Assembly (NCBI GenBank): GCA_040755755.1
Contig: JBFLZW010000006.1
Span: 62,001-126,000 of the forward strand
DNA from: a bacterium
Lineage (GTDB): Bacteria; SZUA-182; DTGQ01
Direction of reading: 5' to 3'
Length of the DNA: 64,000 bases
The translations under genes and the position numbers were made by a program. A model generated the notes under the pieces. It saw nothing but the letters and a program-made list of their open reading frames with translations. It did no database searches and was not told where the DNA came from. Positions 3,661-64,000 of the stretch are shown here, piece by piece. The stretch's first letter is position 1, and every line of letters starts with the position of its first letter.

Positions 3661-5328
3661 TTACGAATCGGATACCGTAATGCTGAGCCGGAAGTCTACC
3701 TTGTTATCGCTTCCCTTGACTTTGGCGCTTTCAACAACCGCCTGAGCATACTGCCGGGTTTTCTGGAGGCTGCTCTTGAGCCGGTCAACCGCTTCGAAGG
3801 AATCGGCTATGCCTTTGATTTTAATCTGATTTTTATCAATTGATAGGTCAAGGAATTCGACCTTGATTTCATCGGATATCCGGATGCTCAGATCCCGAAA
3901 AATTTCAAGATGAGTCAACGACTTACCGGCAAAGGTTTTATATATCTCGTATTTCTCCCTTTCCTTGTTCAGGGCTTTCTTTACCTGCTCAAGCTCATTG
4001 CCCGCTCCCTTGGCCGCAGGAAGAATCTCTCGATAAACCTGATAGATATCACGATTAATCTGGTTGAGTTTCTTCTGCTGGACTGTGGTCCGATAATGAA
4101 TATTGACTGTCAGGAGAGAAGCAGCCACAACAAGCAGCACTGCCAGGACAAGAGCCATTTCCTTATACTGACTGTATTTCTTTTGAAAGACCAGGTCCTC
4201 CTGCCGGAGATTGAACCGGCTTTTCCTGTCCTTCCTTGCCCCGAAAACCAGTCCCAGGGGAACAGACCAGCAAAGGGACTGATCACGGAACGGGGCATTC
4301 TCTTCTCCCAGTGCCTCACAAGGATCAAAGATCGAGGTTTCGATCTGGAGCCTCTCGGTGAAGTAATCGCTGATTCCTTCACAACCGGCAGCCGACCCCG
4401 TCAGCAGTATCCGGGAAATCGAACCATCCAGCCGGTACTGAGAGGAGAAAGCATACAGGGTAAGGTCAACCTGATCCAGGATTTGATCCATCATCTCTCG
4501 GGAGAGATCCACAACTTCAGGCTGGCTTTCATCAATGGCCGGGCTGTCTGGCCGGGCCTCAAGGGCCGCTTCCTGGCCAGGATATCCTTCCCCCTCTTCC
4601 ACCCTTTCCACTCCTTCTTCCCGGCCGTCGCTGGCCGGACTCTCGGATTGCTGCGGCTCAAGGGCTGGCTCAGGGGCCGCTATCCTCTCTCCCGCTTCTT
4701 TCCGGCTGTCATTATCTGTCCGGGACCGTATTGGATGTGAGATATTGCGGGAAAACAGCAGGTGTTCTCCCTGAACAATGACCACCAGAATCCTTTCTTC
4801 ATTGATGTCGATCAGAGCGACAATGTCCTGACTGGATGGGCAGGCATGCAGATAGAGATTGTACAAAGCCGTACAATCCAGCAGAACGTATTGGGGGTCG
4901 ATTCCGGCATCGTTCAGAGACTGGCAGCAGGAAATTATAGCTTCTTTTCTGACCGCTGCAATGAACAGATCAGAGGCACCCTCATCCTTGCCGTCTCGTA
5001 CCTGGAGAGCGAGGACAGCCTCTTCTGCCGGATATGGCAGAGATGATTCCACTTCATATTTGACTATTTTCGCAATCTTGGCAAAATCCCGAAATGGCAG
5101 GGTGATATCTCTGAACACGGCCTGTTGGCTTGAGATCCCCGCGACGATCATGTCTCCCCGGATCCTGTTTTCGGACAGGATCCGTTTGATGGCCGAAGGC
5201 ATGTCCTCTTCGGAAGACAGCCGGTAGCGGCACGACTTGACAACTTCGATCGAATTAATCTTTTTACTGACCTGGATGACCTTGATTTCCGCCAGGCCAA
5301 TTTCTATTCCCATCACAGAGGAATGCAT
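3661..5328 (-). CDS. PilM-PilN fusion / GspL-like inner-membrane assembly protein
   Basis: The N-terminal half is an actin-like (ASKHA) cytoplasmic domain of the PilM/GspL type: it opens with GIEIGLAEIKVIQVS and later has VALIDINEE and ILLTGSAAGCEGI. An acidic, low-complexity insertion rich in E, P and S (about residues 205-270) interrupts it. One membrane helix follows (ALVLAVLLVVAASLLTV), then a coiled coil and a periplasmic ferredoxin-like domain ending in VDFRLSITV, as in PilN or the C-terminus of GspL. The protein would link the cytoplasmic ATPase to the inner-membrane platform of a type IV pilus or type II secretion machine. No PilO/GspM, PilQ or ATPase gene is adjacent, so the choice between the two systems is open. 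GAGGAG lies 11 nt before the ATG. Confidence 0.82.
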   Translation of the reverse strand: MHSSVMGIEIGLAEIKVIQVSKKINSIEVVKSCRYRLSSEEDMPSAIKRILSENRIRGDMIVAGISSQQAVFRDITLPFRDFAKIAKIVKYEVESSLPYPAEEAVLALQVRDGKDEGASDLFIAAVRKEAIISCCQSLNDAGIDPQYVLLDCTALYNLYLHACPSSQDIVALIDINEERILVVIVQGEHLLFSRNISHPIRSRTDNDSRKEAGERIAAPEPALEPQQSESPASDGREEGVERVEEGEGYPGQEAALEARPDSPAIDESQPEVVDLSREMMDQILDQVDLTLYAFSSQYRLDGSISRILLTGSAAGCEGISDYFTERLQIETSIFDPCEALGEENAPFRDQSLCWSVPLGLVFGARKDRKSRFNLRQEDLVFQKKYSQYKEMALVLAVLLVVAASLLTVNIHYRTTVQQKKLNQINRDIYQVYREILPAAKGAGNELEQVKKALNKEREKYEIYKTFAGKSLTHLEIFRDLSIRISDEIKVEFLDLSIDKNQIKIKGIADSFEAVDRLKSSLQKTRQYAQAVVESAKVKGSDNKVDFRLSITVSDS

Positions 5329-59909: not shown

Positions 59910-60088
59910 GATCGACTACCTCCTTACTTGATTGATCTTTTTGTTTTTGCGGGTAATTGCCCATCCCGCCCATTGTTTTCTTTACTCTGCGGACTGCTTT
60001 TTCGCCATGCAGTGCCGTTTCCGGCACTCCGTTGTATTTTCCCGCAATTGTCCAAAGTTACTATTGACTGCCATTTGTTCTGAGAAGA

Positions 60089-60437: not shown

Positions 60438-61454
60438 ATGGCCGGTAATAAAATCGATGGTGTTTTTGAAGGCGGTGGAGTTAAAGGCATTGGTCTTGTC
60501 GGAGCAGTTACGGTCATGGAAGAGAAGGGTTTTCAATTTGAGAATGTGGCCGGTACATCCGCGGGAGCTATCGTCGCCAGTCTGATTGCCGCGGGATATA
60601 CAGCCGGAGATTTGAAAAAAATCGTTCAGGGCATGGATTACCGCAAATTCCAGGATAAAGGATGGCTGGACAAAATTCCGGGTCTGGGGCCTGCCTTGAG
60701 CCTTGGCTTTGAAAAAGGCATCTACGAAGGGAAATTCTTCGAATCCTGGCTGCGGGGTCTTCTCGCTCATGCCCCGAAAGGAAAAGTTACAACCTTCAAG
60801 GACCTGGTTATGGATGAATATAAGGATGACCCCCAGTTTCGGTATAAGCTCCAGGTCATTGCCGCCGATATTACCCGGGGGAAAATGCTGATACTTCCCC
60901 GGGATATTGTCGATTACGGGATAGAGCCTGATAATCTGGAGGTAGCCCTGGCAGTCAGGATGAGCATGAGCATACCTTTTTTCTACGAACCCGTTATCCT
61001 GAAGGACACCAGCGGCACCCCCTGCTACATCGTGGATGGCGGCATCCTGAGCAACTTCCCCGTCTGGCTGATGGATGACCACACCGCCAATCCTCCCTGG
61101 CCTACCTTTGGCTTCAAGCTGGTCGGTCCGACGGATGGAAAGCCGAATACCATCAATGGTCCTGTCACCCTGTTCGCCGCACTCTTCCAGACCATGATGG
61201 AAGCTCACGATAATTATCACATCGAGGAAGCCCAGTTTGCCCGCACCATCCCCATTCCCACACTCGGCATAGGAACAACGGAGTTTAACCTGTCGAAGGA
61301 TAAGAGCAACCGGCTTTTTAAATCAGGGGTGGGCGCTGCCGAAAAATTCCTCCAGGGATGGGACTTTGAGCAATATAAACAGAAGTACCGGCAGAAGAGG
61401 TCTGCGGCACCTCAAAAGGCCGTACTACCCCGAAAACCCGGAGTACCCCAGTGA
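60438..61454 (+). CDS. Patatin-like phospholipase
   Basis: Acyl-hydrolase with a Ser-Asp dyad: GGGVKG oxyanion motif, GTSAG (Ser41) and VDGGILSNFP (Asp200). No signal peptide; bacterial patatins may be cytosolic or secreted. GAGGGGG lies before the ATG. The downstream propeller protein gene overlaps its stop. Confidence 0.9.
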   Translation: MAGNKIDGVFEGGGVKGIGLVGAVTVMEEKGFQFENVAGTSAGAIVASLIAAGYTAGDLKKIVQGMDYRKFQDKGWLDKIPGLGPALSLGFEKGIYEGKFFESWLRGLLAHAPKGKVTTFKDLVMDEYKDDPQFRYKLQVIAADITRGKMLILPRDIVDYGIEPDNLEVALAVRMSMSIPFFYEPVILKDTSGTPCYIVDGGILSNFPVWLMDDHTANPPWPTFGFKLVGPTDGKPNTINGPVTLFAALFQTMMEAHDNYHIEEAQFARTIPIPTLGIGTTEFNLSKDKSNRLFKSGVGAAEKFLQGWDFEQYKQKYRQKRSAAPQKAVLPRKPGVPQ

Positions 61455-62836: not shown

Positions 62837-62929
62837 TTGTCCGGCATGGCCTTTGATTCAGGTGATCGGTCGGGGAGTACGGGAGTACTCCCCCGATTCC
62901 TTCCTCGGTCATTCCCCGCTGCTGCCTGC

Positions 62930-63080
62930 TCACTCCGCCTCTGTCCCGGCCGCCAGCGGCGGTCCGATTGGCAGTCCTTCCTGCTGCATGATCTTCAGGG
63001 CATTGGTGGTTGGACAGACCCCTGGCCGGAGCCGATAGTCGAATTGCATCCGGTCGGTTTCTATTGACTTGTACATATTG
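62930..63080 (-). pseudogene. MutS-family C-terminal fragment
   Basis: On the minus strand DRMQFDYRLRPGVCPTTNAL and KIMQQEGLPIG are the conserved end of MutS-family proteins. The upstream portion of the gene reappears at 63850-64000. Open frame to 63115; homology is clear only up to about 63080. Confidence 0.8.
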
Positions 63081-63091
63081 CCGACTATATT
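63064..63091 (+). promoter_or_regulatory. Predicted vapBC promoter
   Basis: TTGACT (63064-63069), a 16-nt spacer and TATATT (63086-63091), about 50 nt before vapB. Confidence 0.45.
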
Positions 63092-63141
63092 ATTTAGCTG
63101 AGGGACATTGTGCATGAAAATGTAATGGAGAGGTATAATAC

Positions 63142-63342
63142 ATGGAAATTAATCTGGCAATAGACGATAAATTGCTGTCAGAAGCCCAGGAGGTCGGTGG
63201 GCATAAGGACCAAAAAGATATAGTAACGGAAGCACTCAAAGAATATATTCAGCGCCGAAAACAAAGGGAGATCATAGAACTATTCGGTAAGATTGATTAC
63301 GACCAGGATTACGACTATAAAAGTGGCAGGTTCCATAGATGA
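63142..63342 (+). CDS. VapB-type antitoxin
   Basis: 66 residues: LAIDDKLLSEAQEVGGHKDQ, then EALKEYIQRRKQREIIELFG, typical of VapB (ribbon-helix-helix-like N-terminus). GGAGAGG precedes the ATG. Overlaps vapC by 4 nt (ATGA). Confidence 0.88.
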   Translation: MEINLAIDDKLLSEAQEVGGHKDQKDIVTEALKEYIQRRKQREIIELFGKIDYDQDYDYKSGRFHR

Positions 63343-63776
63343 GAGTATTAGTGGATACTTCTATCTGGTCTTTAGCCTTCAGGCGGAATAAAAATATCAG
63401 CATTGAAGAAGCAGGTTTAATCAAGGAACTTGTCAGAATTATTCAGGAAATGAAAGCTGCAATCATAGGCCCCATCAGGCAAGAATTGTTATCGGGTATT
63501 TCTGCCCCTGAGCAATATAAAACTCTCAGGGATAAGCTCAGAGCGTTTGAAGACATGCCTATAGATTCAGATGATTATGAGGTAGCAGCAGATTTCTTTA
63601 ATAGATGCCGTAAGAAAGGTATTCAAGGTTCGCACATCGATTTTTTAATCTGTGCAGTAGCCTGCCGGAATAATATGCCACTTTTTACTCTTGATAAGGA
63701 TTTTGAGCTCTACTCAAGGCATGTGGAAGTTTCTCTTTACATCCCGAATCCTCCGAAAGATAGGTCTTCGTCTTAA
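63339..63776 (+). CDS. VapC-type PIN-domain ribonuclease toxin
   Basis: 145 residues with VDTSIW (Asp6), IGPIRQELLSG, GSHIDFLICAVA and LFTLDKDF, the four acidic PIN positions. The VapB-VapC pair lies between the two fragments of the MutS-family gene. Confidence 0.9.
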   Translation: MRVLVDTSIWSLAFRRNKNISIEEAGLIKELVRIIQEMKAAIIGPIRQELLSGISAPEQYKTLRDKLRAFEDMPIDSDDYEVAADFFNRCRKKGIQGSHIDFLICAVACRNNMPLFTLDKDFELYSRHVEVSLYIPNPPKDRSSS

Positions 63777-63849
63777 GTGGTCCTCTCGCTAACATGGCGA
63801 GGGAACTACGCGGCCGGTTAAATAAAAGCCCCCTCACCCATCCCACACT

Positions 63850-64000
63850 GTTGCCTCTGCTCACTCCGATGATTCTCTCCCGGTTGTTGGTTCCCCGGAA
63901 AATTTCGTCGATGAGGGCCAGGACAGGGGGAGCGCTCCAATCCCCGGCAGCTTCGAGAATGCTTTTCAGCAGCTTGACCTCCGCGTAAAAGGAGGACAGA
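63850..64000 (-). pseudogene. MutS-family Walker B fragment (3' side lost, 5' beyond the window)
   Basis: On the minus strand SSFYAEVKLLKSILEAAG, then VLALIDEIFRGTNNRERIIG, is the MutS-family ATPase region with the Walker B Asp-Glu. The natural continuation (about 40 residues) is missing and vapBC follows; the C-terminal end is at 62930. The gene continues beyond 64000. Confidence 0.8.

Follow-up and report, generated by a model that had tools for sequence, protein, structure and literature searches.

A vapBC toxin–antitoxin module inside a MutS-like pseudogene of a draft bacterial genome

Toxin–antitoxin (TA) modules are described as mobile. How a module that lacks a transposase inserts is seldom visible, and the locus described here displays both edges of the insert, a measured deletion and a fragment of a repeat. 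A comparable case is the MNT-HEPN TA-like module inserted in the lysine operon of Thermus thermophilus HB8 and not of strain HB27; in the part of that report used here, the authors do not decide whether MNT-HEPN is a genuine TA system (PMC2701414). The present locus is a new example of this known kind, a TA-like module inserted at a host locus. A literature search of titles and abstract openings turned up no case of vapBC inserted into a mutS-like gene.

The locus lies at the end of the window, the whole 64,000-nucleotide stretch of DNA that was analyzed (G000:C6:62001-126000), inside a contig of 141,981 bases from a draft assembly of 88 contigs and 5.26 Mb. The interrupted gene runs on beyond the window end to position 5163 of the stretch L003, which extends past that end and in which position p equals window position 60000 + p (here 65163). 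We consider it likely that the locus is a decayed gene of the membrane-type MutS family that gained an ordinary vapBC module. "Membrane-type MutS relative" is a label coined here for proteins with MutS_V, a partial MutS_III and hydrophobic segments.

A vapBC module between two pieces of a MutS-like gene

The first-pass annotation placed a MutS Walker B segment, a MutS end and an intervening vapBC pair here, and all three are found at its positions (Table 1). VapB reaches 64.7 bits against PF09957 (cut-off 23.4) and VapC 90.4 bits against the NCBIfam VapC equivalog NF047959 (cut-off 80). The antitoxin gene is directly upstream of the toxin gene and overlaps its start. Residues D6, E49, D101 and D119 of VapC, which we take to be the catalytic acidic residues, are invariant in all four aligned sequences. 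Judging from its sequence, the module would still work as a normal VapC ribonuclease with its VapB antitoxin. G+C content is 40% in vapBC, 57-63% in the MutS pieces and 50% in the window.

Table 1 Features of the interrupted locus (positions are those of the window).
Feature	Position	Strand	Basis and remarks
CTGCTCACTCCG copy over the mutS stop codon	62926..62937	+	~130 bp beyond the other insert edge
MutS-like pseudogene, 3' tail (SIETDRMQFDYRLRPGVCPTTNALKIMQQEGLPI...)	62930..63068	-	stop 62930-62932; found by tblastn with the whole proteins of G002 and G003
Promoter-like TTGACT-16-TATATT, upstream of vapB	63064..63091	+	overlaps left junction; resembles G002 vapBC promoter region
Inserted segment, ~800 bp, replaces ~41 MutS codons	63065..63864	+	left edge uncertain by ~10 nt (63059-63075); alignment with intact relatives
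vapB antitoxin, 66 aa	63142..63342	+	PF09957, E 7.1e-18
vapC toxin, 145 aa, PIN domain	63339..63776	+	PF01850, E 4e-11
Truncated dispersed repeat copy, positions 1-48 of 84, 92%	63792..63839	+	follows vapC
Filler between repeat fragment and MutS core	63840..63864		resembles DNA at and beyond the mutS stop codon
CTGCTCACTCCG copy at insert edge	63857..63868	+	straddles right edge of insert
MutS-like pseudogene, core with Walker B (IDEIFRGTNNRERIIG)	63865..64000	-	continues beyond window; tblastn, family HMM

Among nine genomes of the phylum, its own included, the nearest VapC (67%) is that of a vapBC pair in G002, a genome of the same family as the source, and the DNA similarity covers both genes and, more weakly, the promoter region. 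The G002 pair sits between other ORFs and not in a MutS-like gene. The five other VapC matches in the source genome are at most 33% identical, and G001, the one congeneric genome compared, yielded no close match to this VapC. A scan of named genomes returned 86 candidate stretches, none of them confirmed, and a search of plasmid records gave three Nostoc matches with 42-47% identity. Adjoining the G002 pair is what we take to be the start of a REP-associated tyrosine transposase-like gene (L034:1-171, from G002:C152; MSRPLRIEFPGAIYHLISRGN), an observation possibly relevant to the movement of this vapBC family.

The proposal that vapBC has its own promoter is moderately supported by the promoter-like element TTGACT-16-TATATT. 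Its likeness holds against one of the three vapBC relatives compared, that of G002 (L034; 67 of 5000 resampled sequences reach its score), and finds no support in L036 and L035, for which 721 and 1754 of 5000 do so.

The pieces on either side of the module come from one gene. That they might belong to different proteins had been named as a reason to doubt the interruption; this is not so, as G002 and G003, both of the same family as the source genome, carry the gene whole (620 and 609 aa) and their proteins align with both fragments. With the G002 protein as tblastn query, the middle and ATPase pieces are found at E 2.7e-117 and the tail at E 2.1e-11 (1.6e-11 with the G003 protein). On the minus strand the core ends in the glycine of RERIIG (63865), and the tail starts near 63068 with SIETDRMQFDYRLRPG..., covering model positions 571-606 of 611 in a family HMM profile built from 73 relatives. 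From that glycine to FDY there are 49 residues in both G002 and G003, of which about 8 are kept in the broken copy. The roughly 40 MutS residues originally reported as gone come to about 41 codons in comparison with either relative, the exact figure varying with the placement of the left edge. A possible continuation of MutS homology further into the insert (VPQLNN, compare VPxLxN of relatives) was set aside: the family HMM alignment begins at YKSIETD and the same stretch lies within the G002 vapBC promoter alignment, and the left edge is therefore uncertain by about 10 nt.

The missing codons include the xTHD motif. Of the 66 relatives with a readable Walker B pattern, 64 have this motif and two lack it; a further 14 of the 80 loci had no match to the Walker B pattern used and were left out. 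Within the 66, the FDY pattern is readable in 54 loci, at distance 49 in 53 and at distance 37 in one. A stop codon follows 75-90 codons past the Walker B region in 77 of the 80 named relatives, and three run off their contigs. These 80, the best among 586 confirmed candidates, sample the family unevenly, and L061 among them is apparently a second entry of G003. At our locus a near-perfect inverted repeat, TCGGGGAGTAC-GGGA-GTACTCCCCCGA (62870-62896), closely follows the mutS stop codon, between two convergent genes; a terminator scan did not call it.

Family and decay of the MutS-like gene

Since the intact relatives are without detected domains I, II and IV and a separate mutS is present in the genome, we conclude from the domain matches that the interrupted gene is not a canonical mismatch-repair MutS. 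In the domain search the G002 and G003 homologues were matched by MutS_V and by a part of MutS_III (33.0 bits, below the cut-off of 34.1, and 44.9 bits, respectively), and neither was matched by domain I, II or IV. They score 118.5 and 118.8 bits against the MutS model NF003810 (cut-off 480) and 99.0 and 92.8 bits against TIGR01070 (cut-off 641.7). A Kyte-Doolittle scan places hydrophobic regions near residues 25-78 and 208-270 of both homologues, which thus combine hydrophobic segments with a C-terminal MutS_V ATPase in about 600-650 aa, as membrane-type MutS relatives do. Such relatives occur, among the matches listed, in contigs titled Nitrospira, Bacteroidetes, Chloroflexi and others. The separate mutS, at C44, is a 904-codon frame in which domains II-V were matched in a searched stretch that begins inside the gene.

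As the gene is not canonical MutS and a separate mutS is kept, the knockout of a repair gene is not supported. Loss of the MutS-like gene would have been tolerated, and on its sequence the locus has the look of a gene in ordinary decay, not of a functioning DNA-repair gene that was lost. A vapBC module within a repair-like gene need not signal the loss of mismatch repair.

Matches of the family HMM to the locus fall at model positions 19-94, 191-396, 389-532 and 571-606 in alternating frames, and tblastn agrees. The segment 191-396 lies in another frame than 19-94, 389-532 is back in the first frame and 571-606 in the second. Past the window end about 96-109 codons are lost, with a frame change, near L003 4855-4870. 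The frame changes again, and some sequence is lost, near L003 4250-4275, and the vapBC insertion makes a third lesion. Because of this insertion and the two lesions past the window end, the gene reads as a pseudogene with at least three lesions and not as one cut once by vapBC. The original picture of a vapBC pair splitting a MutS-family gene is right in that a TA module lies inside the gene with a short deletion, but it misses at least two more lesions beyond the window, in sequence that the first-pass annotation did not have before it.

Between the ATPase piece and G002 there are 27, 14 and 79 differences at codon positions 1, 2 and 3; the corresponding counts are 75, 50 and 131 in the middle piece and 196, 114 and 370 in a control comparison of two intact genes. 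The MutS-like gene was probably constrained until recently and, given the third-position-biased differences in its pieces, its decay would be recent or incomplete.

In the congener G001 a single MutS-like match was found (E 3.6e-8, 34%, in a 926-codon frame), with no close match, and the ancestral, empty site was not seen there. G001 does have neighbouring genes for proteins of 818 and 855 aa, followed by a different gene that is not MutS-like and that we presume, from reading its sequence, to be of GAF/HD type. G002 and G003 showed no gene order in common with the locus, their 818-aa and 855-aa genes being on other contigs than the MutS-like gene. At our locus the 855-aa and 818-aa proteins, large and membrane-like, adjoin the pseudogene beyond the window end (L003:5418-10449), and relatives of the pair are found in G001, G002 and G003 without a MutS-like neighbour in the stretches examined. 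On the other side is a gene that we take from its motifs to be patatin-like (60438-61454); its match in G001 is 83% identical, two in-frame TAA codons were counted inside it, and the G001 homologue is at a contig end.

Edges of the insert and possible routes of entry

vapB and vapC occupy nearly all of the insert, as the ORF listing shows, and a transposase gene would hardly fit beside them. Behind them comes part of a dispersed repeat, about 84 nt long and with a hairpin half, which breaks off in this copy at consensus position 48. The source genome holds at least 42 matches to this repeat at E ≤ 1e-4 (40 of 106 candidates scored); 22 of them, the insert copy included, cover the left half, and 20 cover only the hairpin half, the one missing in the insert. 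No copy was found in G001, G002, G004 and G006, while G003, G005, G007 and G008 have 2 to 15 matches, mostly to the hairpin half. The consensus folds into hairpins somewhat better than its shuffled versions do (z -2.1, equalled by 8 of 200), and the repeat stretch in the insert folds no better than its shuffles (z 0.14).

In the 5.26 Mb genome there are exactly two occurrences of the 12-mer CTGCTCACTCCG and none of its reversed control pattern; with only these two, plain chance is an unlikely source of the pair. The first-pass annotation had pointed to CGGAGTGAGCAG near both edges as a possible recombination trace. The pair is real and found nowhere else, but it is not a target duplication, since only one copy is at an insert edge, while its partner spans the mutS stop codon. 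When the insert edges were compared directly with each other, no signal emerged: neither inverted ends nor a target duplication was found, with 1147 and 1419 of 2000 resampled pairs scoring as high.

The filler resembles the mutS end over 37 aligned positions with one 2-nt gap, a score reached by 15 of 5000 resampled pairs; this likeness is a post hoc finding, and the aligned stretch reaches into the repeat copy by a few nt. In a scan of an 18-kb stretch, 12 of 3588 windows reached the filler score, nine being the edge itself and three the mutS-end copy.

The most likely account of the locus is that a gene in decay passively captured a TA module. Some 800 bp of AT-rich DNA, comprising the vapBC promoter, vapB, vapC and the first 48 repeat positions, would have taken the place of about 41 codons of the MutS-like gene, with the Walker B region on one side and the C-terminal tail on the other. 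Entry would have been by non-site-specific (illegitimate) recombination or template switching, as the edges yielded neither inverted ends nor a target duplication and vapBC fills nearly the whole insert, and the vapBC-plus-repeat segment would have entered a gene already decaying or about to decay. In a specific form of template switching, the broken mutS end would first have copied a few dozen bases of the gene's own 3' end (the second CGGAGTGAGCAG and its flanks), then vapBC plus repeat from elsewhere, and rejoined about 41 codons on. We regard this course as doubtful; copying of the gene's own end as filler would explain the 12-mer likeness, on thin evidence. If true, it would provide a readable example of transposase-free TA spread within genomes, with dispersed repeats carried along.

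How the three lesions followed one another is a separate matter. Within passive capture, the vapBC insertion may have inactivated the gene and the two other lesions followed in the dead gene, an order to which we give somewhat less than an even chance: the insertion by itself removes the xTHD motif, and the coding-type substitution pattern that persists in the MutS pieces suggests that the gene's death was probably recent, but no evidence orders the lesions and the N-terminal loss of some 96-109 codons would destroy the protein too. That the junctions or frame changes are artefacts of assembly is very improbable. The genome is a draft of 88 contigs and the closest relatives with the gene belong to other genera; against this, both gene halves flank the insert in order and orientation within a contig of 141,981 bases, which a random chimera would not produce, and the abrupt change in G+C and the complete vapBC fit a real insertion. 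Equally remote, if not slightly more so, is a mobile element moved by a recombinase that recognizes the repeat or the 12-nt pair. The dispersed nature of the repeat, the uniqueness of the 12-mer to this site in the genome and what we take to be the start of a transposase-like gene beside the G002 vapBC would fit such an element, but the insert edges lack inverted ends or a target duplication, the second 12-mer is found at the mutS stop codon and away from the insert edges, the repeat is cut short in this copy, and the other five VapC matches in the genome share 33% identity or less.

Comparison with known systems

With VapBC type II TA systems (PF09957, PF01850, NF047959) the module shares gene order, gene overlap, sizes, a VapB-family antitoxin, the conserved PIN acidic residues and, with moderate support, its own promoter. 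It differs in its setting inside a pseudogene, whereas the G002 homologue is between other ORFs. The interrupted gene has the Walker A, Walker B, GTNNR and FDYxLRPG...PTTNAL segments of membrane-type MutS relatives, but unlike them it is in pieces and is short of about 41 codons at the insert and about 96-109 upstream. As in the part of the account of MNT-HEPN in T. thermophilus HB8 considered here, a compact two-gene module is found at a locus that lacks it in relatives; in contrast to that insertion, as described there, the vapBC insert breaks a coding region and is accompanied by a deletion.
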